From Nitrospirota bacterium (GTDB lineage: Bacteria; Nitrospirota; Thermodesulfovibrionia; Thermodesulfovibrionales; Dissulfurispiraceae): a stretch of 64,000 nucleotides of DNA. The notes under the pieces are model-generated. The model saw only the letters and a program-made list of their open reading frames with translations, did no database searches and was not told the DNA's origin. The DNA is taken from the NCBI GenBank assembly GCA_009773415.1, contig WSNO01000010.1, positions 1-64,000 on the forward strand. The letters are read 5' to 3'. Both the position numbers and the translations under genes were made by a program. Below, in pieces: positions 3,183-43,061 of the stretch (its first letter is position 1; the number at the start of each line of letters is the position of its first letter).

Positions 3183-3554
3183 TCTTCCTCCATGGAGTCT
3201 ACTCGCATGTACTTATAATACAGCATAGAGAGCGTCTCACAGAAATCCGTCCATAAAGTCTCATTCTTCTATATGAGCTTTTTATATTATGACTGAAGGA
3301 AGCATGATGGATTCCTTCAAGCCTGTTCAGAGAGTCTGAAGGAGCAAGCCGGACATGTTTCAGCCGAGGCGCGGCATTTGGCTCTGGTTGCGAATGGCAA
3401 TGGGCGCATCAGCAGACAGGTTGAACTGGACTCTGGAGCCGGCCTGTCAAGGTGCGCTTGACAACCGACAAGGGGGATAGAACAGTAAAATCAAGAGGGG
3501 CTGCAATTTCAAGCAGCCCCTCTTGATTTTCACAGGAAAAGAGAGCCGGAAAAG
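3183..3554. other. Gene-free gap between two minus-strand genes
   Basis: No plausible coding frame is seen in these 372 bases. An 8-bp hairpin with a 10-base loop (arms 3294-3301 and 3312-3319, TGAAGGAA/TTCCTTCA) has no T-run. A strong terminator lies at 3487-3530. The part nearest the UPF0182 start has an AT-rich patch (TATTATAAG on minus) that could be a -10 region but lacks a clear -35. Confidence 0.6.
3487..3530 (-). terminator. Intrinsic terminator of the FecR-domain gene
   Basis: Perfect 18-bp arms at 3487-3504 and 3513-3530 enclose an 8-base loop. The GC-rich core (GAGGGGCTGC) is flanked by A and T runs, so it can act as an intrinsic terminator on either strand. It lies 25 bases past the stop of the minus-strand FecR/DUF6600 gene. 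Confidence 0.85.
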
Positions 3555-5798
3555 TTATAAGCCCCGATCCTCGTGCTTCCCCCGGTCTTTGCTGTCCTTG
3601 TTCATCCGGTTATCTTCGGTGTTTCCCCGCTTTTCTTTTGTCTGCTGTTTTTCATTCTTCTGCTCTGTCTTTGTTGCTGCCTGAGTCCTGACTGGAGACT
3701 GCTCAGGTCGTTGCGGGGGCTTTGCACTTTTCTGTTCAGTCACTCTTTCAGGGTTCGATACCTTGGTACGTTGCACAGCGTGAAGCTGCTGTCGGTTTTT
3801 ATTGAAATCAAAACTGCCGTCGCGGCCACCGGGCCTGCCACGCTCCGGCTGAATTCCCGGATTGCCCGGCATTCTGTCGCGCTGTCCCGGCTGCTGATTC
3901 TCAAAGCCTCCCGGCCGGTGCCTATCCTGCTGCGGTAAATTCTCCTTGTCGTCACGCATCTGAGCCGGTCTTTCTTGCCGCTCCTGACGTCGCTCGCTTT
4001 CAAAAGCCGGAGTTTCAGCAGGACGGGCATCTCTTCTTCTCTCGTTCTGCTGAAGTCCCCGACGGTCTTCCCGCTGTTCTTGCCTGTCCCTTATTCGATC
4101 ATCAGGACGGACCCCGGGAGTTGCGCCGGGCCGGACAGGATCGGGAGTGCGTATCGTGCGCCGGTCATCCTGGGGGACACGCCGGTCTCCGGGACTTGGA
4201 ACTGCAGGCACTTCCGGCTGCCGGAAGCGCTGAGTATCCCTTCCTGACGGAACCCGAGGATCGGGCGTGCCTGGCTTTCCTGCAGGAGACAGGTCAGAGG
4301 GTCGCTTCTGATCAACTCCGGATTCAGGCAACCCGGGCTTGCCTGACGGAGGTGAATCAGTCCGGTGAGTCGGCTCCCCACCGCGTCGCGGCATGGAAGG
4401 AGTTTCGGCACTCGTTACCGGCATGTTCCGTACAGGTTCTCCGCGGCGGAAAACCGAGCGTTCCGGTTCGCGCACAAGCGGGCGCTGTTGTCTGAGGTCG
4501 CTGACGGAGTTCTTTTGCACCGCCTGTGGAGGCGCATTCTCCACTGCAATCTTCCGGTCGGACCAGCGGGAATGTGCCAGTCCAGGCTTGACCTCCGGAC
4601 CGCCGACACTGATGTTGTTCCGGCCGAAGAGATCTCTGTGCGCATGCCGATCATAGCCGGTACCCTTCGGCGCAACAGACTGGAAATGGTCACGGTTGAC
4701 AACGGTTGCGCCGTTATTGACCGTTACATTTCTATAGACGTTCGTGACCTTGATGTGGTTGACATTAACGTTCGTGATGTTGACGCTATGCGGTCCGTAC
4801 TGTCCCCGGCCGTAGTAAATCTCGCCTGGCGCAAGCGGCACCCACCCGATATAACTGCCGCTCCGAACCCATCCGACATAGCCGGGTCCCCAGAATACCT
4901 GCCGGGGAGCCGGAGGAACCCAGCACCAGCCATAGCGGGTGACATATGTCCATCTGCCGTAATGATAAGGTGCCCAGCCCCATGGGTCATAAGGCAGCCA
5001 GATGTAGTGGCCATGACGCCATATCCATCTTCCGTGGCGATATGGTGCCCAGCGTTCTATAACGATGACAGTAGGCGTCCAGACGTTTCCATATTCCGGA
5101 ACATTTACCCATCTGCCTCCGGTGTCAAAGTCCCTTGCATAGCCTTTCAGTTCCTCCGGGAGATAGCGAGTGCTGGTTCCGGTGCGGGCGCGGTAGAGGT
5201 CGTTTCTTGCGGTGTTCCATCGTTCCCATGCGTCGGGGGGGCCGAGAGGCGCGAGCGAGCCGCTGGTCTGCTGCCCCAGTGAAAGCATCTTGCCTGCGGG
5301 CACGCGGGTCTGTCCAAGGCGGTTTTCTGTTTCGACAGTTCCTTTATACACGGCAACGTCTGTTGCACGGTCTGTCAAATCTATACGAAACACAGCGTTG
5401 CTGTGTGCGCGAACTGACGCTTCGGGCGTGTCAATCTGAATAACCTCCCGCTGTGCGTTTTCAGTATAGACGTAAGCGCCTCCCTGGGAGAGATGAAACT
5501 GGGATGCACCGCTGCTGCTTGCAAGCACCTGAAGAGCCGAATTTCCGTCGAGTCTGATCAAGGCTCCGCCGGCAAGCTGGATCTCTGCCCGGCTCCCTCG
5601 AGGAATCCAGACCTGGTCGCCTTCAGCCAAAGGGCCGTTGATAACAGCAGGACCCCAATCACTTCCTTCAGGAATTTTTATCTGCACATCACCCTCGGTG
5701 TGGCTAAGGCGCAGGTACTCCGGCTGAGCCGCAAAAGCTGCCGTCGATATGAGCAGTAGAACAAAAAACAACGCTGATTCTTTCAATAGCTTATACAT
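3555..5798 (-). CDS. Secreted FecR-domain / DUF6600-like protein
   Basis: This 747-residue protein begins with a signal peptide (1-23, cleavage after AFA). A FecR-like beta domain follows at about 45-165 (GDQVWIPRGSRAEI, then a VxVYKGTVE strand). A Trp/Tyr-rich block at about 220-330 with repeated W-x-P and GRW/GHYIW motifs resembles DUF6600. From about 400 to the end it is low-complexity, rich in Arg, Pro, Gln, Glu and Asp, and probably disordered. A GAGGAGG site precedes the ATG by 9 bases. FecR domains elsewhere sense or bind at the periplasmic face, but no sigma factor gene is adjacent, so a FecR-type regulatory role is not supported. An envelope or surface role is my inference. Confidence 0.8.
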   Translation of the reverse strand: MYKLLKESALFFVLLLISTAAFAAQPEYLRLSHTEGDVQIKIPEGSDWGPAVINGPLAEGDQVWIPRGSRAEIQLAGGALIRLDGNSALQVLASSSGASQFHLSQGGAYVYTENAQREVIQIDTPEASVRAHSNAVFRIDLTDRATDVAVYKGTVETENRLGQTRVPAGKMLSLGQQTSGSLAPLGPPDAWERWNTARNDLYRARTGTSTRYLPEELKGYARDFDTGGRWVNVPEYGNVWTPTVIVIERWAPYRHGRWIWRHGHYIWLPYDPWGWAPYHYGRWTYVTRYGWCWVPPAPRQVFWGPGYVGWVRSGSYIGWVPLAPGEIYYGRGQYGPHSVNITNVNVNHIKVTNVYRNVTVNNGATVVNRDHFQSVAPKGTGYDRHAHRDLFGRNNISVGGPEVKPGLAHSRWSDRKIAVENAPPQAVQKNSVSDLRQQRPLVREPERSVFRRGEPVRNMPVTSAETPSMPRRGGEPTHRTDSPPSGKPGLPESGVDQKRPSDLSPAGKPGTPDPRVPSGRDTQRFRQPEVPAVPSPGDRRVPQDDRRTIRTPDPVRPGATPGVRPDDRIRDRQEQREDRRGLQQNERRRDARPAETPAFESERRQERQERPAQMRDDKENLPQQDRHRPGGFENQQPGQRDRMPGNPGIQPERGRPGGRDGSFDFNKNRQQLHAVQRTKVSNPERVTEQKSAKPPQRPEQSPVRTQAATKTEQKNEKQQTKEKRGNTEDNRMNKDSKDRGKHEDRGL

Positions 5799-6096: not shown

Positions 6097-6861
6097 ATGA
6101 ACCTTCGCCAGACCATCAGCGATCTGCAGGACTATTACCATCTCGCCTTCCATGGCTTTATGGGTATTTTTCGCCGGCCCGTGTACTGGAAGGATACCCT
6201 TGAACAGATGGATTACGCCGGCGCTGGTTCTTTTTTCATCATGGGACTTGTCTCGCTTTTTGTCGGCATGGCGCTTTCATTGCAGCTTGCCGCTGAATTG
6301 TCGGTTTTGGGCCTGAAAATGTATATCGGAAAAGTGGTCGGCATCACCATCATCCGCGAAGTCGGACCGGTCACGGCTGCGCTTGTGTTCACCGGTCGGG
6401 TCGGCGCAGGGATAGCATCGGAACTTGGGTCAATGATGATTGGCAATCAGGTAGATTCTCTGCGGGTTTTCGGGGTCGATCCGATTAAAAAACTGGTGAC
6501 CCCGAGAATAGTGGCGTCGCTGGTCATGCTGCCCGCGCTTACCATTGTCGGCGATGCGATTTCCCTGCTCGGGGCATGGTATATTGCGGTGTTCGTGAGC
6601 AATCAAAGCGGGTATGTCTTCTGGAGTTCGGTGCGCAGCATTCTTGACTTTCAGAACGTGTTTTCCGGCGCCGTGAAGCCGTTTATGTTCGGATTCATCA
6701 TCGCCAGCATCAGCTGCTATGCCGGCCTGACGACGAGGGGCGGCGCGACCGGACTGCGCACATCAACGACAAATGCAGTCGTCATGTCGATTATTATGAT
6801 CATCATCTCCGACTTCATTCTGACGCGCATCCTTCTTTATGTGCTGGGGTATTCGACATGA
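6097..6861 (+). CDS. mlaE: MlaE-type ABC transporter permease
   Basis: This 254-residue inner-membrane permease belongs to the MlaE family, which moves phospholipids between inner and outer membranes in diderms. It shows the family's amphipathic N-terminus, about five membrane segments, and the hallmark region REVGPVTAALVFTGRVGAG followed by ELGSM and the V-DSLRVFGVDP turn. Its length is normal. Its ATGA overlaps the start of the ATPase gene, so the two are translationally coupled. There is no clear ribosome site before the ATG; the upstream bases are AT-rich (TAAAATATAAAT), so the start or the leader is unusual. Confidence 0.95.
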   Translation: MNLRQTISDLQDYYHLAFHGFMGIFRRPVYWKDTLEQMDYAGAGSFFIMGLVSLFVGMALSLQLAAELSVLGLKMYIGKVVGITIIREVGPVTAALVFTGRVGAGIASELGSMMIGNQVDSLRVFGVDPIKKLVTPRIVASLVMLPALTIVGDAISLLGAWYIAVFVSNQSGYVFWSSVRSILDFQNVFSGAVKPFMFGFIIASISCYAGLTTRGGATGLRTSTTNAVVMSIIMIIISDFILTRILLYVLGYST

Positions 6862-7604
6862 TCCGTTTTGAGAAGGTCTGTTTCGGCTACGGCTCCGGCC
6901 TCATTTTGAACGAGACGAGTTTTACCATTGAAGATGGTGAAAAGCTCGCCATTCTTGGAGGCAGCGGTTCGGGCAAAACCACCATACTGAAGATGATTGT
7001 AGGCCTCATTCGTCCGGATTCCGGTACTATTATCGTCGACGGTGACGACATTACAGGCAAGTCGGAAGATGCGCTGAACGACGTGCGCCGGAAGTTCAGC
7101 ATCGTCTTTCAGCAGGGGGCATTGTTCGACTCGCTGACGGTGAAGGAAAATGTGGCATTCTGCCTCCGCGAATATACCGCCATGTCGGAAGGAGAAATTG
7201 ATGCAAAGGTCAGGGAGCTGCTTCAGCTGGTGGATGTGGAACCTGCAATTTATCTTATGCCCGATGAGTTGAGCGGCGGCATGCACCGGCGAGTTGCGAT
7301 TGCCCGGGCGCTTGCGGTTTCGACGCCGAAGATGATGCTGTACGATGAAGCGACGGCAGGGCTCGATCCTGTGAACTCCGACAACATCTGCCGCCTGATC
7401 GTCGAACTCAGCAGGAGCGGCATGGGGCACATCATGGTGACGCACAAGGTGGTGGATGCCATGAAGGTTGCTGAGCGGTTTATTTTTCTGGAAAACGGTA
7501 AAGTGGTGTTTGACGGCAACGCTGATGCCCTGATTCATTCGGCGCATCCGCCAATCAAAATATTTGTCGATGAGCTGAGGTATCAGCCGACTGCCCTGCG
7601 CTGA
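6858..7604 (+). CDS. mlaF: MlaF-type ABC transporter ATPase
   Basis: This 248-residue ATPase powers the MlaE permease. Walker A is GGSGSGKT (34-41), the ABC signature is LSGGM (138-142), and Walker B is MMLYDE (159-164) followed by ATAGLDP. The LSGGM variant is typical of Mla-type ATPases. It overlaps mlaE by four bases and is followed 20 bases later by the MCE protein gene, giving the usual E-F-D order. No mlaC or mlaB is present, as in many non-enterobacterial systems. Confidence 0.95.
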   Translation: MIRFEKVCFGYGSGLILNETSFTIEDGEKLAILGGSGSGKTTILKMIVGLIRPDSGTIIVDGDDITGKSEDALNDVRRKFSIVFQQGALFDSLTVKENVAFCLREYTAMSEGEIDAKVRELLQLVDVEPAIYLMPDELSGGMHRRVAIARALAVSTPKMMLYDEATAGLDPVNSDNICRLIVELSRSGMGHIMVTHKVVDAMKVAERFIFLENGKVVFDGNADALIHSAHPPIKIFVDELRYQPTALR

Positions 7605-7624
7605 CGGCTGATCGGGAGGAGACG

Positions 7625-8584
7625 ATGTTTGACAAGAAAAAGAACCTGACGTGGGCAAAACTGAAAGTCGGGCTGGTTATTACGATTGCCCTGTTCATAC
7701 TGTTTTTCACTGTTTTTTTTGCGGGGGGGCTCGAAAATCTTTTTCAGAAGAAAGCCGAGCTGAAAGCAACAGTGCGCGATGTGCGCGGGCTGCGCGTCGG
7801 TTCGCCAGTATGGAAGGCCGGGGTCGAAATCGGCACGGTCCGGTCGATTCGGCTACACCCTGAATTCGGCACCATCGTTTCAATGAAGATCCGGCAGGAC
7901 ATTTTTCATCACATACGTAAAGATTCCACAGCAACTGTCCAGACGATGGGACTGCTCGGCGATAAGTATATTGAGCTGACGTCGGGCACTGCAGACGCTT
8001 CGCCTGTGCGATCCGGCGATACGATTGCGGGAAGTATCCAGCTCGAGATGAAGGATCTTGTGCAGGAGGGTTCCAGTTCGATGGAGAAGGTAGGCGCGTT
8101 TCTTTTGAAGCTCGATCAGTTTCTTGTCAAGATAGACAGCGGACACGGTACAGTCGGAAAGCTCATGGGAGATCCCGCGCTTTACAATAACCTGAATGAC
8201 ACGGCTAAATCGCTTGCCCGCCTCACCCGCGATATGGAATCTGCCGACGGTTCTCTGAAAATGCTTGCGAAGGACCCGACGCTCTATAATCGTCTGTCCA
8301 GTGCCGCTCAGTCGCTTGATGAGGTTACAAAAAAGATGAATGAGGGCAGCGGTTCGTTCCGGAAGTTTCTGGAAGATCCCTTACTCTACGATACTCTTGC
8401 CGCGTCATCGAAAAAACTGAATGCCATCGTCGAACAGATGGATGCGGGGCAGGGAACAGCCGGCGCGCTTCTGAAAGACAAGGAAATGGAAAAGGACCTC
8501 AGGCAGATTGTCTCGGAGTTGAAGGACATGATGAAAGACATGAAGGAGAATCCGAGGAAGTACTTCAAGTTCAGCGTCTTTTAG
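7625..8584 (+). CDS. mlaD: MlaD-type MCE-domain protein with internal repeats
   Basis: This 319-residue protein is anchored by one N-terminal membrane helix (about 15-34). An MCE domain (about 42-120, with VRGLRVGSPVWKAGVEIGTV) follows; it is known in the family to form a hexameric periplasmic ring that carries lipids. The C-terminal 180 residues are helical and contain three repeats of the type DP-x-LY-x-x-L, spaced about 45 residues apart, with G-x-G turns (near 190, 231 and 270) and a fourth weaker one. A GGGAGGAG site lies 4 bases upstream. The long helical tail could form a barrel or tube extending the MCE ring; that is inference. Confidence 0.92.
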   Translation: MFDKKKNLTWAKLKVGLVITIALFILFFTVFFAGGLENLFQKKAELKATVRDVRGLRVGSPVWKAGVEIGTVRSIRLHPEFGTIVSMKIRQDIFHHIRKDSTATVQTMGLLGDKYIELTSGTADASPVRSGDTIAGSIQLEMKDLVQEGSSSMEKVGAFLLKLDQFLVKIDSGHGTVGKLMGDPALYNNLNDTAKSLARLTRDMESADGSLKMLAKDPTLYNRLSSAAQSLDEVTKKMNEGSGSFRKFLEDPLLYDTLAASSKKLNAIVEQMDAGQGTAGALLKDKEMEKDLRQIVSELKDMMKDMKENPRKYFKFSVF

Positions 8585-12529: not shown

Positions 12530-13185
12530 TAAAAATAGCGCCGTCCATACTTTCAGCCGATTTTGCGCGGCTGGGGGAAGAAATAGAAGCCGCAGCGCGC
12601 GCGGGAGCCGACTGGCTGCATGTGGACGTCATGGACGGGCACTTTGTTCCGAACATGACCATCGGTCCTCTTGTGGTCGAGGCGCTCAAAAAGAGAACAG
12701 CCCTGCCGCTTGATGTTCATCTCATGATTGAGCAGCCGGACCGCTATCTGCAGGATTTTACGGATGCCGGAGCAGACTATCTCACCGTTCATGCAGAAGC
12801 GTCAGTGCATCTTCACCGCTCGGTTCAGCACATCAAGGAGCTTGGCGTGAAGGCGGGTGTTTCTCTGAACCCCGCGACTCCGCTGTCCGTGCTTGAGTGT
12901 ATACTGCCGGACCTCGACATGGTGCTGCTGATGTCGGTGAACCCCGGTTTCGGCGGTCAGAAATTCATTCCCTTCGTCATGGAGAAAATACGCACACTGA
13001 AACGGATGATTGCGGAGTGCGGGTCGCTGGCGCTTATCGAAGTTGATGGCGGCGTAAAGCCTGATAATGCCCGCGCGGTAGCAACTGCAGGAGCTGACGT
13101 TCTTGTTATGGGGTCAGCATTTTTCGGGGCTGATGATTACGAGCTGCTCATGAAAACACTTCGCACAACGCTGGAGGGGTGCTGA
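12526..13185 (+). CDS. rpe: Ribulose-phosphate 3-epimerase
   Basis: This 219-residue TIM-barrel enzyme interconverts ribulose 5-phosphate and xylulose 5-phosphate in the pentose phosphate pathway. The family metal site is visible: His32 and Asp34 in [13 protein letters not shown], His65 in DVHLM and Asp174 in EVDGG. The phosphate-binding SVNPGFGGQ loop is also present. It overlaps the PASTA gene (ATGA) and its TGATG junction leads straight into the TPR gene. Confidence 0.97.
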
Positions 13186-14279
13186 TGGAAAAGAGGATTG
13201 CCTCGCTCATGGTGTCTGCGGAAGCGCTCCGCGAGCGCTCCAACTATCCTGCGAGCCTGAAGCTGTTCCGTCTGGCGCTTGCGCTCTGTCGCCGCAGAGA
13301 GCATCTGCAGGGTGTTCTTGATTCTCTCATCGCCATTGGGGACATCTGCCGCATGACCGGCGCGTTTGATGCGGCAATCAGCACCTATTCAGAGGCGCTC
13401 GACATGTGCCGTGCGCTTGATGATGAACTTGCCGCCGCCGATACGCTGGCAGGCATCGGACTCTCATACCGCGCTTTAGGCAAGTGGGAGCAGGCAATCA
13501 GGTTCACTGAAGAGGCCCGGGCAATCTATCATGAAGCAAAAGATTTAAAAGGCATTGCATTTTCTATCTGGGCGGAGGCGGGAGCGCTCCGGTTCGGCGG
13601 CAAGGTTCCTGAGGCGATTCGCCGTTTTGCAGAATCAAAAAAAATGTTTGAAAAGGCCCGGTTCACTCCGGGGATTGCCTATTCACTATGCGGGCTTGGC
13701 GGCACAAACCGGCTTGCAGGCAATTTTGCTGCGTCGCTTTCTTTTTACAGCGAGGCAAATGATCTGTTTCGTGTCCTGAAAGATCGGTTCGGACAGGCTT
13801 ATTCATACTGCGGACTCGGCAATGCCCACCGGATGGCCTGCGATTTCCGCGCCTCCCTGAAATATTTTCGCAAGGCCGAAAAGCTCTATGCCGCATTTGG
13901 CGATATTGTCAGCTTTTCCTATACACTCTGGAGCATGGCTTCTCTTTTCACCATGACCGGAAAGCTCGATGATGCCAAAGACTGCATTGCCCGCGCGCAG
14001 AAAAACTTCCGCAAGACCAAAGATCCGCGCGGGCTTATTTATTGCCAACTGACGCTTGGCCAGATGGACTTTTTGAAGGGGAGAAAAGCATCGTCAATCC
14101 GCAGGTTCAAGGCAGCCTTTACCGAAGCTGAGCATTTCGGATTTGCGCTTGAACGATGTCATGCAGAGGCGCTGCTCGCTATCGCTTCTGGCGACGGGCT
14201 TGGGACGGCAAAAAAGACCTGCTACCGGAAAATAGGCGTGAACCTCGACTGTCTGAGCATTCCGTTCAATATTCCGTAA
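13185..14279 (+). CDS. Tetratricopeptide-repeat protein
   Basis: This 364-residue soluble protein is built almost entirely of about eight TPR-like helix pairs, with recurrent G-x-x-x-R/A-x-x-G-x-F/L spacing (for example IGLSYRALGKWEQAI, CGLGGTNRLAGNFAAS, CGLGNAHRMACDFRAS). Repeats of roughly 40 residues resemble the NPHP3/Rapsyn kind of TPR. The ATG at 13185 (TGATG overlap with rpe) is preferred over the GTG two codons earlier because GGAGGGG precedes it. It has no signal peptide. Only a protein-binding scaffold role can be suggested. Confidence 0.8.
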   Translation: MEKRIASLMVSAEALRERSNYPASLKLFRLALALCRRREHLQGVLDSLIAIGDICRMTGAFDAAISTYSEALDMCRALDDELAAADTLAGIGLSYRALGKWEQAIRFTEEARAIYHEAKDLKGIAFSIWAEAGALRFGGKVPEAIRRFAESKKMFEKARFTPGIAYSLCGLGGTNRLAGNFAASLSFYSEANDLFRVLKDRFGQAYSYCGLGNAHRMACDFRASLKYFRKAEKLYAAFGDIVSFSYTLWSMASLFTMTGKLDDAKDCIARAQKNFRKTKDPRGLIYCQLTLGQMDFLKGRKASSIRRFKAAFTEAEHFGFALERCHAEALLAIASGDGLGTAKKTCYRKIGVNLDCLSIPFNIP

Positions 14280-14284
14280 GCTGC

Positions 14285-14833
14285 ATGTCGATAACGGTTT
14301 TTACACTGCCGAACGTCATAACATCAATCCGGATTCTTCTGATCCCGGCTTTTGTCATTGCGATCCTCTACGGCAGCTATCCGGAAGCGGCCGTCTTTTT
14401 TATCGCAGCCAGCGTTTCTGACGCCGTCGACGGCTGGATTGCGCGTACCTGGAACCAGCGGAGCGAACTCGGAGTGTTTCTCGATCCCGCCGCGGACAAA
14501 TGCCTCATGATTGCGTCGTTTGTTCTTTTTGCTTCATTCGGCTGGGTTCCGCTCTGGCTGGCGCTTACGCTTATCGGGCGCGATTTGGTGATTGTTCTCG
14601 GATGGGTGTTTATAATGAAAGTGCATGGTCTGACAAAGGTGTCGCCGACGATGGCCGGCAAGACGGCTATTGCATCGGAAATGGTGCTTCTTTCCTATAT
14701 TTTGCTCTGGCTGAATATTCCGTCCTTGCCGGAGCCGATGGTATGGATGTTTGTCGTCGTTGCCGTTCTTTCCGTGGCATCAGGGCTGCAATATATATAC
14801 AGGGGGCTGGAGCAGACGCGTGAAAAACGTTAA
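14285..14833 (+). CDS. pgsA: CDP-alcohol phosphatidyltransferase (PgsA-like)
   Basis: This 182-residue membrane enzyme carries the complete CDP-alcohol phosphotransferase signature: Asp46, Asp49, Gly50, Ala53, Arg54, Gly63, Asp67 and Asp71. It has about five membrane helices. It most likely makes phosphatidylglycerolphosphate from CDP-diacylglycerol and glycerol 3-phosphate, though the exact acceptor cannot be fixed from sequence. The start at 14285 matches the family's FTLPNVITSIR opening; the longer frame from 14156 lies inside the TPR gene. Its end overlaps the DUF512 gene by 14 bases. Confidence 0.9.
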   Translation: MSITVFTLPNVITSIRILLIPAFVIAILYGSYPEAAVFFIAASVSDAVDGWIARTWNQRSELGVFLDPAADKCLMIASFVLFASFGWVPLWLALTLIGRDLVIVLGWVFIMKVHGLTKVSPTMAGKTAIASEMVLLSYILLWLNIPSLPEPMVWMFVVVAVLSVASGLQYIYRGLEQTREKR

Positions 14834-36119: not shown

Positions 36120-36209
36120 TATAGTATAGTCGTCAGTTTTTTTTGGTGCGTTATTTTTGCTCATGCCTCGTTTTATGGCGATAGCATGACGTAATATCAG
36201 GGAGGATTC

Positions 36210-37517
36210 ATGCTGCAAGAGTACCGTGAGGGAAAGAAGTGCATAGCGGTTGTTGGTCTTGGATATGTGGGACTGCCTTTGTGTGTCAGTCTGGGTCGGG
36301 CGTTCCCAAAAGTCACAGGCTTTGATATCAATGCGGACCGCATCAGGGAATTGCAGGCCCGACTGGACAGGAATGAGGAAGTAACTTCTCATGAACTGAT
36401 GCAGACATCGGCTGCCTTCACGGCTGATCCGTCCGTCCTGGAAACAGCCGACGTAATTATTATTGCGGTACCTACGCCCATCAATTCGCACAAGATTCCC
36501 GACTTAGCCCCACTGCGGCTTTCTTCAGAAATTGTCGGCAGAAACATGAAACCCGGCGTGATTGTCGTCTATGAATCCACCGTCTATCCTAGCGTCACGG
36601 AGGAAGTCTGCGGGCCTATTCTTGAGCTGCACTCAGGGCTTGCGTGCGGGGCTGAGTTCAGGCTCGGGTATTCTCCGGAGCGCATGAATCCGGGGGACAA
36701 GGCGCATACCGTGGAAAATATCGTGAAAGTTGTCGCCGGGCAGGATGAGGAAACGACCGAACTCCTGTGCTCGATATACGGGAGCATCGTAAAGGCTGGT
36801 ATCCATCGCGCTCCCAATATCAAGACTGCCGAAGCGGCAAAGGTCATCGAGAACATCCAGCGCGATCTGAACATTGCTCTCATGAACGAACTTGCCATTA
36901 TTTTCAAAAAACTCGGGATAGATTCGGGTGAAGTTCTGGCGGCGGCAAAGACGAAGTGGAACTTTATCCCCTTTGAGCCGGGGCTTGTCGGCGGGCACTG
37001 CATCGGCGTTGATCCCTATTATCTGACCTTCAAGGCGGAAGAGCTTGGCTATCGGCCTGAAGTAATACTTTCCGGCCGCCGGATCAACGACAATATGGGC
37101 AAGTATATTGCCGAACAGACCATCAAGGAATTAATCAAGGCAGAAGTCTGTTTCAAGGGGAATAAAATTCTTATTCTTGGTTTTACCTTCAAGGAAAATA
37201 TAAACGATATCCGCAATACAAGAGTGATTGATATTTATCACGAACTCCGGCAGTTCGGAGTGCAGTGTTTCATCTTCGATCCGGTCGCCGATGCCGATGA
37301 TGTTCATGAGGAATACGGATTGCAGTTGCTTCAAACCCTTATTGAGCATGCTCCCTATGACGGCGTGATTGCGGCGGTGAAGCACGATGCGTTCAGAACT
37401 CTGGATATTGCCCGGCTCAAGTCAGTCTGTCGCGGGGAGCCGGTATTCATGGATGTGAAAAGCTGTTTCTCCCGGGAGGCTATTGTTGCACATGGTTTTC
37501 GGTACTGGAGGCTGTAA
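36210..37517 (+). CDS. UDP-sugar 6-dehydrogenase (TviB/WbpA type)
   Basis: This 435-residue nucleotide-sugar dehydrogenase has the NAD-binding GLGYVGLPL (16-24), the helical dimer domain, and the catalytic cysteine 264 in GGHCIGVDPYY. The C-terminal Rossmann domain follows. Features such as GRRINDNMG and ILGFTFKENINDIRNT place it with the UDP-N-acetylglucosamine/galactosamine dehydrogenases (TviB, WbpA-like) rather than plain UDP-glucose dehydrogenase; the exact substrate is inference. GGGAGGA ribosome site. The next gene starts at the base after its stop. Confidence 0.9.
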   Translation: MLQEYREGKKCIAVVGLGYVGLPLCVSLGRAFPKVTGFDINADRIRELQARLDRNEEVTSHELMQTSAAFTADPSVLETADVIIIAVPTPINSHKIPDLAPLRLSSEIVGRNMKPGVIVVYESTVYPSVTEEVCGPILELHSGLACGAEFRLGYSPERMNPGDKAHTVENIVKVVAGQDEETTELLCSIYGSIVKAGIHRAPNIKTAEAAKVIENIQRDLNIALMNELAIIFKKLGIDSGEVLAAAKTKWNFIPFEPGLVGGHCIGVDPYYLTFKAEELGYRPEVILSGRRINDNMGKYIAEQTIKELIKAEVCFKGNKILILGFTFKENINDIRNTRVIDIYHELRQFGVQCFIFDPVADADDVHEEYGLQLLQTLIEHAPYDGVIAAVKHDAFRTLDIARLKSVCRGEPVFMDVKSCFSREAIVAHGFRYWRL

Positions 37518-38468
37518 TTGGCAGGGCTTCGAATAGCCGCTGTTTTACTGACGATTATCGGGATGCTGAGCATTCCTGCATTTGCGGAGCAAAAGCGCGG
37601 GATTGCCGCTTTCTCTCTTGACGACGGATATCCGAACTGGATGACTGCCGCACATATCCTGAAAAAACATGGCGGCGTCGCCACAGGATATGTGAATAAT
37701 TTCAGGATTGACCGCGGCGATATTTCGGCCGAGATGCTTAGCGCCTTGCAGGATGTGTATGGATGGGAGATCGGCACGCATACTTATGGGCATGCGAATC
37801 CCGAAGCCTTTGTGCTGCTTTACGGCGGAGAAAGATGGATTCAGGATGAACTGCTGAGTTCGATTCGCGGGCTTGCTGCACTGGGGCTGAAGGCTCATTC
37901 TTTGGTTTTCCCCTATAACAAGTCAACTGCGGAGCTGCGCCGTACCGTGCTTCTTCACGTGTCTTCGTTTCGCTCGGGCGGTGAGCGTCCCATCGGCACC
38001 GGCATCCGCCCGGACGGTTCTTTTCCAGGGAAGGCTATCGATGTCGCCGGCTATGTTCCGATTTCACAGGTTTTTTCGTGGATTGACAGAGCGCATCGTG
38101 AGGGAAGTGTATTGTTTCTTTACGGACATCAGGTGCTTCCTGATGCGGCATTCCATACGGGTTCTGTTCAGTCGGTCACCAGCGGTGAACTGACTGCGGG
38201 GGAACCTGTGAAGCCCTTTCATGACCCGTATAGTTGTCTCGTCCCTGATATGGAGAGACCCTTGCAGTATGGAATTGCCATTCAGAAAGTTGAAGGCAAC
38301 CGAATCCTCATTTCCAATGCAAACCTGCTGCGTTTTACTGCACCGGGGGCCCGCTTTATGATTGGTCCCTGCCTGGGACTCCGGGAATCGGACCTTGAGG
38401 CAATCGTCGCGTATGCAGCCTCACGGCTTGAGTTCAGGAGGATAAGCGATTTGCCGAAGGAGCAATAG
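37518..38468 (+). CDS. Secreted NodB-type polysaccharide deacetylase
   Basis: This 316-residue protein has a signal peptide (1-23, ending AFA) and a carbohydrate-esterase-4 domain. The metal and catalytic motifs are SLDDG (33-37, Asp35 and Asp36), H-x3-H (His88 and His92 in GTHTYGH) and FPY (131-133). Such enzymes remove N-acetyl groups from amino-sugar polymers. The TTG start at 37518 abuts the dehydrogenase stop and has GGAGG upstream. Its place in this locus suggests it trims the exported polysaccharide in the periplasm, as PgaB does for PNAG. Confidence 0.87.
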   Translation: MAGLRIAAVLLTIIGMLSIPAFAEQKRGIAAFSLDDGYPNWMTAAHILKKHGGVATGYVNNFRIDRGDISAEMLSALQDVYGWEIGTHTYGHANPEAFVLLYGGERWIQDELLSSIRGLAALGLKAHSLVFPYNKSTAELRRTVLLHVSSFRSGGERPIGTGIRPDGSFPGKAIDVAGYVPISQVFSWIDRAHREGSVLFLYGHQVLPDAAFHTGSVQSVTSGELTAGEPVKPFHDPYSCLVPDMERPLQYGIAIQKVEGNRILISNANLLRFTAPGARFMIGPCLGLRESDLEAIVAYAASRLEFRRISDLPKEQ

Positions 38469-38511
38469 CATATGCCACTATTCTGCAGAAATTTCGTTTT
38501 GGCTTTTGTAT

Positions 38512-38545
38512 AAAAATCCGACTGCTTCTCACAGACGGATTTTTT
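38512..38545. terminator. Bidirectional terminator between convergent EPS arms
   Basis: AAAAATCCG (38512-38520) pairs with CGGATTTTT (38536-38544). After an A-A mismatch the stem continues with CTG/CAG around a 7-base loop. A and T runs flank both sides, so it can stop transcription in both directions. It lies between the deacetylase and porin stop codons. Confidence 0.8.
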
Positions 38546-38562
38546 GGAGAACTGATTTGAAA

Positions 38563-40383
38563 CTAAAAGCGTCGTGTAATTGAAATCCCCGCAGACCAAC
38601 CGCTATAGGATCCCGTCTGTCCAAGGTTATGGAGACCGCCTAAGCTCATGCGGACAAACCAGTCGCGATAGATGCCAAAGAACCCTTCAACGGATCCTTC
38701 GAAACACCCCTTGAATCCATCGGTTGTCGTATCCTTGTTGATGCCGGCTCCTGTTGTAAAGCTGACGCCGTTATCATCGTCGATTTTCCAGTACCAGAGG
38801 CCGACAAGCAGATATTTCTGATAGAGCGTGGGATCATAATACCCATTCGTATCATCTTGCTCTTTAAACCCTGTGCGCAGGGCTGAGATGCCGATGTCCA
38901 GATTCAGCACTTCGGTGCGAAGAACTGCCCGGCGCGGAAAGAGCTGCACTTCCCATTGGCGGTTGTCACGACTGAAGAAGTTCAGTGCGGCACTTCCGGT
39001 AACCGTCCATGCCAAATCCGGGCGCCATTCAAATGATGCCTGGTTCAGATACCTCTGGATGCCGAGCGACAGCGAGCGTGCCGAAGGAAAATAGTAATCA
39101 TGAGCATGCGCTACCTGGAGCTTAAGTGCGTCGTGCGGACGGATAAAGGCGTTCAACCCGTAGTACGGCGTGGTATGACTTTCAGTAAAGGCTTCTCCGG
39201 CATAGACATCAGCAGCGAAAAGAGGCGAGAAACGGTGGTTGATCCCGAGTGCAAGCGCAGTGCGGAACGCCGATGCATTTCCGCTGATGTTCTCCAGTCC
39301 GCTGCCGATCTGTGCGCGAACGATGTCGAATTCAGCTTTGGCATATGCATGTGTAAGCGGAGTAATAAAATAGGCACCCTTCAAATAGGTGCGATAGATG
39401 TCTACGCTGTCAGAGTCATGATAAAAATTAAACCCGCCGGTAAGGTAGTGCCGGACGGGTGTCCTGACGAATCGTCCCGCATCATATACTTCCCTTGATC
39501 CCGGCCGAAGCTTCTCAAGCTGCCTGACGCTTTCCAGCGCTTCCGGAAACCTTTCGGCATGCCGGAGATCCACTGTCCGGGTATACAGCAACTCGTAATC
39601 ATTCGGCTTTGCATTCAACAGAGGGCCGAGAAAGGAAAGCGAAAGGTCAGGGCGGTCATCCCAGGCATATACTCTTGCAAGGTGCGCACGGGAAGAATCA
39701 TCATGTTGAAAGCGGTCTGCATATCCGACCAGGATTTTTTCAGCAGCAGGATAGTTTCCACGCTCTGCTTCTGCCATTGCCAGTTCAAGCAGAATATCTT
39801 TCCGATCGGCATTCTTTTCAAGGTAGGAACGATAGGTTCCGACCGATTTCGTCAGCTTGCCGCTCCACTTCTGAGTACGGGCAAGGTTTATCTCCGCATC
39901 AGCGGCGTCCGGGTCAATTTCGAGAACTTTCTCTAAACTCTGACCGGCTATATCATACTTTCCGAGCCAGTTTGCAATTGAGCCGCGCGATTCCCAGTAT
40001 TCCTTTTTATTCGGGTTTAACTCGATAGCTTTTTCGATGGCGGCCAGCGCCGGTTCGGGCTTCTGCATCACGGAATATGACTGAGAAAGCCTGAAATACA
40101 ATTCTGCATCGCCGGATTTGAGCCGAACAGCCTGGGTAAGCGCTTCAGCTGTCTTTTCGATATTTCCGAGCGCCCAGTAGAGATCTGCGACGCGAAGCCA
40201 TATGGGAAGCTGATCAGGATTGCGTTTCAGCATACCGTCGTAGATGGCAATCGCCTTGTTCCAGTCTCCTGCCATCTCGGCTCTCAGGCCGTCTTCAAAT
40301 GCCGGAAGAGGAATTTCCTGTCCGAAGGCCGCAGCCGGTGTCAAGAAAAGCACCAGTAGCACAAGAGCAAATGTGAATCGCAT
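38563..40383 (-). CDS. TPR and beta-barrel export porin (PgaA-like)
   Basis: This 606-residue protein has a signal peptide (1-21, ending AAAFG). About seven TPR repeats follow (roughly 25-310), then a C-terminal outer-membrane barrel (about 320-606) rich in alternating aromatic strands and ending in Phe. This layout matches PgaA, which exports poly-N-acetylglucosamine, but it is about 200 residues shorter than the E. coli protein. The ATG at 40383 has AAAGGA six bases upstream; the longer frame overlaps the glycosyltransferase gene. It is the last gene of the minus-strand arm. Confidence 0.82.
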   Translation of the reverse strand: MRFTFALVLLVLFLTPAAAFGQEIPLPAFEDGLRAEMAGDWNKAIAIYDGMLKRNPDQLPIWLRVADLYWALGNIEKTAEALTQAVRLKSGDAELYFRLSQSYSVMQKPEPALAAIEKAIELNPNKKEYWESRGSIANWLGKYDIAGQSLEKVLEIDPDAADAEINLARTQKWSGKLTKSVGTYRSYLEKNADRKDILLELAMAEAERGNYPAAEKILVGYADRFQHDDSSRAHLARVYAWDDRPDLSLSFLGPLLNAKPNDYELLYTRTVDLRHAERFPEALESVRQLEKLRPGSREVYDAGRFVRTPVRHYLTGGFNFYHDSDSVDIYRTYLKGAYFITPLTHAYAKAEFDIVRAQIGSGLENISGNASAFRTALALGINHRFSPLFAADVYAGEAFTESHTTPYYGLNAFIRPHDALKLQVAHAHDYYFPSARSLSLGIQRYLNQASFEWRPDLAWTVTGSAALNFFSRDNRQWEVQLFPRRAVLRTEVLNLDIGISALRTGFKEQDDTNGYYDPTLYQKYLLVGLWYWKIDDDNGVSFTTGAGINKDTTTDGFKGCFEGSVEGFFGIYRDWFVRMSLGGLHNLGQTGSYSGWSAGISITRRF

Positions 40384-40427
40384 GATCGTATCCTTTCGGT
40401 TCCTGATATATATGTTTGTTTTTATCA

Positions 40428-41813
40428 TCATTTGCGCCATTTTTTGTCCCTGAATATCCAGATATCGGCAGCAAAACGCAGAATGACGGTAAAGTCATAC
40501 ATGAGGTATGCATAACGCAAGGGAGCAACAAGCAGGCTTTTTAGCGCGTAGTTGAAACGCTGCCCTTTCGCCACGATGAAAAGAACCAGCGTGGAGAGCA
40601 GCACTTCTGCAAGAATTGTGATGACCAGCGGTTCCCAGAGCTGCAGGAGGAGCATGATCAGAAACGATGTCGGGAACGCAATTTTTTCGAAAAGAGACGT
40701 GAAGAGGATCCATCCGACAGGGCGTCCGTATTTCTTGGTATACTCCTCCCCGAATGACTGCCGGTACTGCTCCCCGATTTTTCGTTTCTGCTCCGTTTCC
40801 CTTGAAACCTTTTTGTCACGCCTTTTTTTGCGCCAATACGCAATGACACGGAAAGGAGTTTTCAGGAGATCGTCGAAATAATAGCAACTCTGTAAAAAAG
40901 AAGAAGACCACATATATATCTGTCTCGGAAGACGCGTGGCTTCCGGTTCTTCAGACCGGGCACAGACGTCGGCAATCTGGATGTTCCGGTATCCCTTGTT
41001 CGTCATCGCAAATCCGATAAAAATATCCTCGGAATTCGTCAGATCGTCGCCGAGGATGGGTTCATATTTGTCGAACAGGTCTTTGACATATTTTCTGCGG
41101 TAGGCGACGGCACATCCGACCGGATTCGTTATAGATCCGACAAAAACCATCTGCCCATGGTATATGAAGCGTTGCAGAAACATGTAGAGAGCATCCCGAT
41201 AAAGATTGGTGATTCCTCTTTTCAGACGATTCCACAGGCTGTCGCGCTGCACAAATTTCGCCTCAGGGTGCTTTTGAAGAAACGAGTGCATGACATTGTC
41301 TCTATCCAGACTGGTTCTGTCCCTGTCGCGAAGCGGCAGAATGACGCCGCAGGCGCATGCAATGCCGACCCCCTGATAAAGTTCCTGAACAGTGCGTTCT
41401 ATGTAGTTCGGCGATTCGAGAACCGTATCGCCGTCAAGAATGAATTCCACATCAGCATCGAACTCGCGCGACTGCCGCTTAATAGTGGGGGTTTTTCCGA
41501 TCGATTTTTCCCGACGAATGGCAATGATATCCATCCCGAGCGTCGCCGCCATGTCTTTTGCATATTCAAATGTCCGATCCGAACTGCCGTCATCGATTAG
41601 TATGACATTGCGCGGTCTGAGAGTCTGTTTCGCTATTGAGGAGAGACAGTGCGCGATGTTTTTTTGTTCATTAAAGGCCGGGATGACAACATCTACAACT
41701 GCATCGCGCCAGTTTTCTGCGGGAGTGGGCACTGTTTTGTCGGGACCATGCAATAACCCCAAGATGCTCATCAGGGAATTCGGACTGACTACAAAATATG
41801 GAAGTGTTGCCAC
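40428..41813 (-). CDS. Processive family-2 glycosyltransferase (PgaC-like)
   Basis: This 461-residue inner-membrane enzyme has a GT2 domain: VVIPAFNE (42-49), DDGS (74-77), DGD (127-129) and the acceptor-side acid pair SED (261-263). C-terminal membrane helices follow (about 375-400 and 405-430). The processivity motif QxxRW appears as QIYMW (298-302), with Met where Arg is expected. The GTG start at 41813 lies one base past the stop of the epimerase gene and has AAGGGGG upstream. It likely polymerises an amino-sugar or aminouronate chain; the sugar is not fixed by sequence. Confidence 0.85.
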   Translation of the reverse strand: MATLPYFVVSPNSLMSILGLLHGPDKTVPTPAENWRDAVVDVVIPAFNEQKNIAHCLSSIAKQTLRPRNVILIDDGSSDRTFEYAKDMAATLGMDIIAIRREKSIGKTPTIKRQSREFDADVEFILDGDTVLESPNYIERTVQELYQGVGIACACGVILPLRDRDRTSLDRDNVMHSFLQKHPEAKFVQRDSLWNRLKRGITNLYRDALYMFLQRFIYHGQMVFVGSITNPVGCAVAYRRKYVKDLFDKYEPILGDDLTNSEDIFIGFAMTNKGYRNIQIADVCARSEEPEATRLPRQIYMWSSSFLQSCYYFDDLLKTPFRVIAYWRKKRRDKKVSRETEQKRKIGEQYRQSFGEEYTKKYGRPVGWILFTSLFEKIAFPTSFLIMLLLQLWEPLVITILAEVLLSTLVLFIVAKGQRFNYALKSLLVAPLRYAYLMYDFTVILRFAADIWIFRDKKWRK

Positions 41814-41814
41814 A

Positions 41815-42813
41815 TTATCCCCCTTGTGCCTTTCGTTTGTCTTGTTCGATGTAGATAAGGTCAAGCAATGTCTGATTCAGCGGCCACTGAAACTGCATGT
41901 CAGTCAGCGAGAGGAGCTTTGTCATCGAAGGCCTTCTGTGCAAGATATCGGCAAAGTCCATTCCATAAGCATCCTGATAAGGAACGCAGCGAATCTCGGA
42001 CTGACTGTGAGAAAGCCATTTCACCCGCTCCGCCAGCTCGGCAATCGAAATTTCCTGTGCATTTCCGACATTCACCACTTCGCCGTAACTGCTGCTGTTA
42101 TCGGCAAGAAGGTCAAGCATGACGACAGTATCGCGCACATCACAGAAACAGCGTTTTTGCGTTCCATCTCCAAAAACCGTGATGGGCTGTCCTGAGACTG
42201 CCTGACGGACGAAGCGGGGGACGACCATCCCGTACTGCCCGGTCTGCCGGGGGCCGATGGTATTGAAAAAACGGACGGTAACAATCGGAGCTCCGTATGC
42301 TTTTGCATACGACAGGCAAAAAGCTTCGTCAACCAGTTTGCTGATCGGATAATTCCATCGAAGGCTCGAGTTTTCCTCTATGAGCAATGCGTCTCTTTCG
42401 GAGAATTCGCATGTCTCTCTGCCGGGAATGCCGTTGCCGTATACTTCCGATGTAGATGCGACGATCAAGGTGCTCCTCCACTTATTTTTATGAGCGGCTT
42501 TCAGGAGCAGTTCGGTTGCTTCTACATTAACGGCCATAACATCAACCGGGTTTTTTAACACGCGAAATACTCCGACAACCGCTGCCATGTGGTAGATACG
42601 ATCAGACTGGGCAACACTGCTCTCCAGATGAGGCCACGACAAAAGATTTGCCTTTTCGAAGCGGAAGTTCGGATTCGGGAGAAAATTCCTGATATTGTGC
42701 TCTGAGCCGGTGCTCAAATCATCAACGGCGATGACCTCATGTCCCCGGCTCAGATGAAACTGGACAATGTGCGACCCGATGAACCCGGCGCCGCCTGTAA
42801 CGAGAATTCTCAT
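41815..42813 (-). CDS. NAD-dependent nucleotide-sugar epimerase/dehydratase
   Basis: This 332-residue extended short-chain dehydrogenase has the NAD loop GGAGFIG (7-13), the STSEVYG segment (120-126) and the catalytic pair Tyr155/Lys159 in NYPISK. GPRQTGQYGMVVPRF and GDGTQKR further on are typical of sugar epimerases and 4,6-dehydratases. It could interconvert UDP-GlcNAc and UDP-GalNAc or act on the uronate made by the dehydrogenase across the locus. ATG at 42813 with AGGAG five bases upstream. First gene of the minus-strand arm. Confidence 0.85.
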   Translation of the reverse strand: MRILVTGGAGFIGSHIVQFHLSRGHEVIAVDDLSTGSEHNIRNFLPNPNFRFEKANLLSWPHLESSVAQSDRIYHMAAVVGVFRVLKNPVDVMAVNVEATELLLKAAHKNKWRSTLIVASTSEVYGNGIPGRETCEFSERDALLIEENSSLRWNYPISKLVDEAFCLSYAKAYGAPIVTVRFFNTIGPRQTGQYGMVVPRFVRQAVSGQPITVFGDGTQKRCFCDVRDTVVMLDLLADNSSSYGEVVNVGNAQEISIAELAERVKWLSHSQSEIRCVPYQDAYGMDFADILHRRPSMTKLLSLTDMQFQWPLNQTLLDLIYIEQDKRKAQGG

Positions 42814-42860
42814 TTGCACTCCTAATTCCTTAATTTCGCTGAGTTGAAATTTGGCTTTTC

Positions 42861-42869
42861 AGTATAACA
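42861..42869 (-). promoter_or_regulatory. Possible extended -10 promoter of the epimerase arm
   Basis: On minus, TGTTATACT gives a TGn-TATACT extended -10 at 42869-42861. It lies 48 bases before the epimerase ATG. No good -35 is seen at the expected distance, which extended -10 promoters can do without. Confidence 0.4.
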
Positions 42870-43029
42870 TAGCACCGAGTATCCTACGCCGGCTCATAAG
42901 CTGTTGATTCATATAACTTCGGAGAGCGGCGACTTAAGCGGCCTCCCTCCTGCCTTGCTCTTTTTCTGACAGCCTGCTACTATATAAGCTGATTTTTCAA
43001 GCAAAACGTTTCGTTTTTGCGCCCGATAT

Positions 43030-43035
43030 TATAAT
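43030..43035 (+). promoter_or_regulatory. -10 box of the yajC-secDF promoter
   Basis: A perfect TATAAT lies 26 bases before the yajC ATG. The region 16 to 18 bases upstream holds no clear -35. GGAGGTG at 43051-43057 is the ribosome site. Confidence 0.4.
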
Positions 43036-43061
43036 CCCAAAATAGCATATGGAGGTGTTGT

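Follow-up and report, generated by a model that had tools for sequence, protein, structure and literature searches.

Between mqnA and yajC, the DNA stretch studied here (64,000 nucleotides of contig WSNO01000010.1 from a Nitrospirota bacterium, referred to as the window) carries five genes that code for an NDP-sugar dehydrogenase (DH), a secreted NodB-type deacetylase, an extended SDR protein (EPI), a GT2 glycosyltransferase and a TPR/barrel porin. We read them as a horizontally assembled, synthase-dependent exopolysaccharide island, in which DH and a decarboxylase would provide a UDP-pentose, most likely UDP-N-acetylxylosamine, that is polymerised by GT2, partly deacetylated by the CE4-type enzyme and exported by the porin. 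We give this reading close to an even chance, though slightly short of it. A narrower version, which we hold more tentatively and clearly below even, is that poly-N-acetylxylosamine forms an undescribed class of exopolysaccharide, i.e., a pentose analogue of chitin/chitosan without C6, which a dedicated DH-decarboxylase-GT2-porin-CE4 system would produce and which GH10 enzymes adapted to a 2-acetamido pentose would trim in some lineages. No report of a polymer of N-acetylxylosamine was found in the open-access literature, where the nucleotide sugar UDP-N-acetylxylosamine is known. For comparison we used 39 loci besides the window, found in Pseudomonadota and Campylobacterota, with a focus on the genes of EPI, GT2 and the porin (the trio). 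Neighbouring genes in these loci were called with a composition-based gene finder (first-pass open reading frames in high-GC loci were partly antisense).

Five genes inserted between mqnA and yajC

The island spans 36120..43061. Archease, RtcB, MqnA, YajC, SecD and SecF are clustered in four same-family relatives (L156-L159), and the five genes are not among them. That is, mqnA adjoins yajC in the relatives while the respective gap in the window holds exactly five genes, and the two convergent arms are thus one insertion. The plus arm consists of DH (36210..37517) and NodB (37518..38468), whose TTG start immediately follows the DH stop. The minus arm holds EPI (41815..42813), GT2 (40428..41813, with a GTG start) and the porin (38563..40440, with a likely true start at about 40383, upstream of the signal peptide), all tightly packed. 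Between the arms lies a bidirectional hairpin terminator (38503..38550). Its folding energies on the two strands are -11.7 and -15.8 kcal/mol (z of -2.6 and -5.2), and either strand has A and T tracts next to the hairpin. The consensus terminator scanner missed it because its loop exceeds the scanner limit; the consensus promoter/terminator scan found no overall terminator excess and was uninformative. GC and GC3 of the island equal those of its neighbours, such that base composition gives no island mark.

An earlier sequence-only reading of this DNA had listed the same five genes with their strands and a shared terminator. Profile searches and the window sequence confirm the genes at or near the positions given there, and the hairpin agrees with the proposed terminator.

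At the same mqnA-side site, a genome of the same genus (L155, 6632-10220) has a 944-aa PelA-like gene (GH114 plus deacetylase-like) after mqnA, followed by a TPR-like gene of 263 aa, where the contig ends. Given this PelA-like gene, the position is a possible hotspot for swapping exopolysaccharide operons.

Decarboxylase residues in EPI and the predicted sugar

We predict EPI to act as a UDP-uronate decarboxylase. A PDB sequence search identifies human UDP-xylose synthase (UXS), the Pcryo_0617 decarboxylase and ArnA as its closest solved relatives, and the best fold match is UXS, followed by ArnA; identity to the ArnA/UXS decarboxylases is about 25-32%. In UDP-GlcA decarboxylases, Glu replaces the Ser of the epimerases (PMC7984243). 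The TSE triad and R619 of ArnA have been described as decarboxylase features, R619 being conserved subclass-wide, while mutagenesis singled out no one essential residue (PMC10338323). Here, the triad Glu (as SSE, TSE or SAE) is found in 36/36 EPIs together with YxxxK, and equivalents of ArnA S433/E434/R619 are conserved in the aligned EPIs, with EPI R293 aligned to R619 in HRKP/HRRP. The EPI tail YGxx[FY]xDxxxRxP is as in ArnA. An HMM built from the 36 EPIs ranks UXS first (218 bits), followed by the Pcryo_0617 decarboxylase (198), ArnA (171), RffG (115) and GalE (83); an SDR tree with few references left the decarboxylases unresolved. Given these residues and the HMM ranking, C4-epimerase activity is unlikely. 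That is, EPI is probably an "epimerase" in fold, not in reaction.

DH is predicted to be a TviB-type UDP-GlcNAc 6-dehydrogenase. It contains all three UDPG/MGDP-dehydrogenase Pfam domains (UDPG_MGDP_dh N/M/C) and passes TIGR03026 with 366 bits; its best equivalog model is TviB, where it scores 461 bits and stays below the cutoff of 592. Its GGHCIGVDPYY motif matches WecC (GGHCI..D), not Ugd (GGYCLPKD), and the respective catalytic-Cys motif GGHCIxVDP is found instead of the Ugd-type GG[SY]CxxKD in the window DH, its relatives and the DHs next to the trio. We thus predict a HexNAc (TviB/WecC-like) type rather than a plain UDP-glucose dehydrogenase, in line with the TviB/WbpA-like enzyme of the sequence-only reading.

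In the proposed pathway, DH would oxidise UDP-GlcNAc to UDP-GlcNAcA, which EPI would decarboxylate, most likely to UDP-N-acetylxylosamine. GT2 would polymerise this sugar across the inner membrane, probably into a beta-1,4 chain, NodB would strip some of the N-acetyl groups to leave a cationic polymer, and the porin would export it, while other lineages would add a dedicated hydrolase (GH10, GH18 or a GH-A relative) that trims the chain. The same two predicted reactions (UDP-GlcNAc to UDP-GlcNAcA to UDP-XylNAc) are those of the UDP-GlcNAc 6-dehydrogenase and UDP-N-acetylxylosamine synthase (UXNAcS) of Bacillus cereus subsp. cytotoxis (GU784842/GU784843), a pair that makes UDP-N-acetylxylosamine according to PMC5078965 (citing Gu 2010). 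The likeness lies in the predicted reactions, and the open-access papers describe no polymer synthase or porin with the Bacillus pair.

The sequence-only reading had instead proposed an aminouronic polymer, for which EPI would convert UDP-GlcNAcA from DH into UDP-GalNAcA by C4-epimerisation as in Vi antigen, with GT2 polymerising and NodB deacetylating the product. This fits a HexNAc-type DH that is closest to the TviB model, the extended-SDR fold that EPI shares with TviC and UDP-GlcA 4-epimerase, and a second, GalE-like SDR (SSCA[VI]YG) beside the system in L047 and L075. Yet the triad Glu and the R619 equivalent of the EPIs are decarboxylase residues, the best solved relatives are decarboxylases, EPI scores only 88 bits against the TviC model (cutoff 760), and GH10 enzymes, which occur in several of the related loci, normally have pockets for pentoses. 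We consider an aminouronic product unlikely.

GH10 genes are part of the trio operon in seven loci, i.e., L032-L035 (Thiobacillus-type) and L101-L103, which come from the same taxonomic order. None of the four Thiobacillus-type genomes (one is recorded as Rhizobium sp., yet groups with Thiobacillus) has another GH10. Both catalytic Glu are kept in 7/7 sequences, which retain 37/43 control-invariant positions. In contrast, the Asn preceding the acid/base Glu, found in 5/5 controls, is replaced by Ala or Ser in all seven. In GH10 enzymes, this residue touches the -1 sugar at O2, and a 2-acetamido pentose would favour losing it. Furthermore, the porin gene of L100 is followed by that of a GH18, a family whose mechanism depends on the 2-acetamido group, and a clan GH-A-like protein is encoded in the loci L076 and L078. 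A GH18 in L040 was excluded as an operon member, its gene being convergent.

These hydrolases also bear on a plain xylan-type polymer, which we regard as just as unlikely as the aminouronic one. Here, UDP-GlcA would be turned into UDP-xylose, GT2 would form beta-1,4-xylan, the CE4 enzyme would be an acetylxylan esterase and GH10 would trim the product. EPI indeed resembles UDP-xylose synthase, GH10 is a xylanase family and provides the single GH10 of the Thiobacillus-type genomes in this very operon, and acetylxylan esterases occur within CE4. On the other hand, all DHs next to the trio are of HexNAc type with no Ugd-type gene detected there in the 39 loci, the O2-contacting Asn is gone from every GH10, and L100 has its GH18. 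Taken together, the HexNAc-type DHs, the Bacillus pair, the GH10 Asn loss and the GH18 favour, as far as sequence comparison can tell, a beta-1,4 polymer of N-acetylxylosamine over xylan or aminouronate.

Recurrence of the trio and origin of the island

EPI, GT2 and porin genes occur together in 36/39 loci. The exceptions are L099 and L100, where the contigs end and EPI is not visible, and L075, where a different, GalE-like SDR (6767-7741; SSCA[VI]YG) replaces EPI and an extra chitin-synthase-like GT2 is present. In L047, the second SDR of this kind (2666-3637) lies next to DH. A TviB-type DH is found beside the trio in 13/39 loci (L036, L040, L042, L047, L074, L082, L094-L097, L099, L102, L103), i.e., in about 7 lineages other than that of the window, compared to a chance expectation of about 0.2 that we estimate for one such gene per genome. 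CE4 or CE4-like genes are near the trio in 9/39 loci (L032-L035, L097, L098, L101-L103), where the calls for L097 and L098 were made by eye from the sequence, Pfam giving no match. In L102 and L103, EPI, GT2, porin, CE4, GH10 and DH even form one six-gene operon. The shared insertion, the DH next to the trio in a third of the loci and these six-gene operons support the earlier claim that the two arms belong together.

In L097 (534-12923) and L098 (3363-6095), genes for a formyltransferase and for a CE4-like protein accompany the trio, joined in L097 by a nearby ArnB-like (DegT family) aminotransferase gene. This lineage may use a formylated amino pentose as its sugar.

Relatives of the window GT2 with about 48-67% identity are found in Thiobacillus, Halothiobacillus, Guyparkeria, Lysobacter, Campylobacterales and others, and in the respective tree the window forms a long branch next to relatives from Pseudomonadota/Campylobacterota. 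No close GT2 relatives were found in 100 related genomes, in 296 genomes of the window's phylum, or in plasmid and viral collections. Since the trio was found in no other sampled genome of the phylum, it was probably acquired horizontally. The window DH, in turn, groups with the DHs of its own family (66% identity) and branches within their clade; these DHs lie close to envelope genes such as GT2 and GT9 and have no trio beside them. That is, judged by sequence, DH is native and the trio foreign: a foreign trio would have been joined to a local DH, given GT2 relatives outside the phylum and a DH within the clade of its own family. DHs therefore seem to have been recruited to the trio repeatedly.

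One might restrict the exopolysaccharide module to the trio and consider the window DH and NodB incidental, serving the synthesis of O-antigen or another envelope sugar. This would agree with the closest relatives of the window DH, i.e., same-family DHs near GT2/GT9 and envelope genes without the trio, and with the majority of loci having no adjacent DH. However, DH and NodB lie within the same insertion as the trio, and HexNAc-type DHs of different lineages recur beside it, such that we consider this explanation quite improbable, more so than either alternative sugar.

Synthase, export and known systems

The island encodes an inner-membrane glycosyltransferase, a periplasmic modifying enzyme, a TPR domain and an outer-membrane porin together, i.e., the combination that defines a synthase-dependent exopolysaccharide system (PMC9384988). 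The GT2 protein (PF00535/PF13641) is the predicted polymer synthase. It scores 48.8 bits against the PgaC/IcaA equivalog (cutoff 422), and an alignment of 19 sequences shows DxD, the SED base and an [QE]xx[ML]WSSS motif where QxxRW is expected. The porin (PgaA/BcsC/PelB-like) combines TPR families with a C-terminal barrel-like region and adjoins GT2 in the homologous loci. With 61 bits against TIGR03939 (cutoff 367) it is no PgaA equivalog, while the TPR plus barrel architecture is shared. NodB matches PF01522 over the cut-off and has a signal-peptide-like N-terminus, as expected of the periplasmic CE4 deacetylase of a system for poly-N-acetylglucosamine (PNAG). Its sequence displays the metal and catalytic CE4 motifs DDG, HTYGH, FPY and LYGH. 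Next to the trio of Thiobacillus and of three related loci, the CE4 enzyme belongs to a different subfamily.

Export would work like the PNAG or alginate route, yet the island belongs to neither system. With PNAG (pgaABCD) it has a GT2 synthase, a TPR/barrel porin, a CE4-type deacetylase and the synthase-dependent logic in common (PMC9384988). PNAG, however, involves no dehydrogenase or decarboxylase, and in the island no PgaD is seen, the deacetylase is a separate CE4 instead of a PgaB fusion, and GT2 and porin are well under the PgaC/PgaA cut-offs. Alginate (alg) likewise unites a dehydrogenase, a GT2 polymerase and TPR-plus-porin export. But AlgD is a GDP-mannose dehydrogenase and alginate remains a uronate, whereas here an SDR decarboxylase is predicted to follow, and the island has no Alg44, AlgX or AlgL-like gene. 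Vi antigen (tviB/tviC) also pairs a TviB-like dehydrogenase with an extended SDR; the SDR here shows decarboxylase rather than 4-epimerase residues, and export would be of porin type while Vi uses an ABC transporter. ArnA/UXS decarboxylases share active-site residues and fold with EPI, which in contrast would feed a polymer synthase and has a predicted 2-acetamido substrate. Pel shows a similar logic of TPR porin, deacetylase and hydrolase, with the PelA-like gene of L155 at the same mqnA-side site, but its glycosyltransferase is a GT4 (PelF), it relies on a PelA fusion and it has no dehydrogenase. No named system with this combination was found in the open-access literature. On the whole, the sequence-only reading is supported for the joined arms, the PgaA-like export logic, the DH type and the unnamed combination, but not for the Vi-type epimerase and its aminouronate.

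If the N-acetylxylosamine reading is true, an amino pentose that the open-access literature knows only as a nucleotide sugar would serve sulfur-oxidising and other environmental bacteria as the building block of a structural polymer. A further synthase-dependent export system would stand alongside cellulose, alginate, PNAG and Pel, and GH10, a classic xylanase family, would gain a biosynthetic role. Even with one of the rival sugars, this would be an exopolysaccharide locus that is mobile and has yet to be characterised, and for which biochemistry offers a clear test.

Several observations weigh against this reading. Only a third of the loci have a DH in the trio neighbourhood. The QxxRW of processive synthases is replaced by [QE]xx[ML]W throughout the GT2 family, and processivity is thus assumed, although alginate/Pel-type systems are not all defined by QxxRW; the GT2 structure model (pLDDT 62) is too poor for a useful fold search. 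The CE4 proteins of window and Thiobacillus are only distantly related, the island has no glycoside hydrolase of its own, such that the window and the Thiobacillus loci may not make the same polymer, and the sugar may vary between lineages because L097 and L098 add a formyltransferase and L097 an aminotransferase. Finally, the TSE triad is also found in some 4,6-dehydratases. An EPI acting as an RmlB/LegB-kind 4,6-dehydratase in parallel to DH, resulting in a mixed polymer of a 6-deoxy amino sugar and an aminouronate, would be in line with this use of the triad Glu and with the RmlB and LegB NCBIfam models (123 and 120 bits on EPI), but is the least probable alternative given the low rank of RffG behind all decarboxylases, the TDE of RmlB versus SSE/TSE in EPI, and the ArnA-type tail.

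Two further gene arrangements were observed next to the trio. In four Halothiobacillus/Guyparkeria loci (L038, L045, L048, L050), a sulfate permease and a Usp-type protein follow in the same direction, which are probably neighbours and not members. In Luteimonas (L037), the gene immediately after the porin (12830-14779) codes for an AT3-SGNH O-acyltransferase, which possibly provides an alternative modification to deacetylation.

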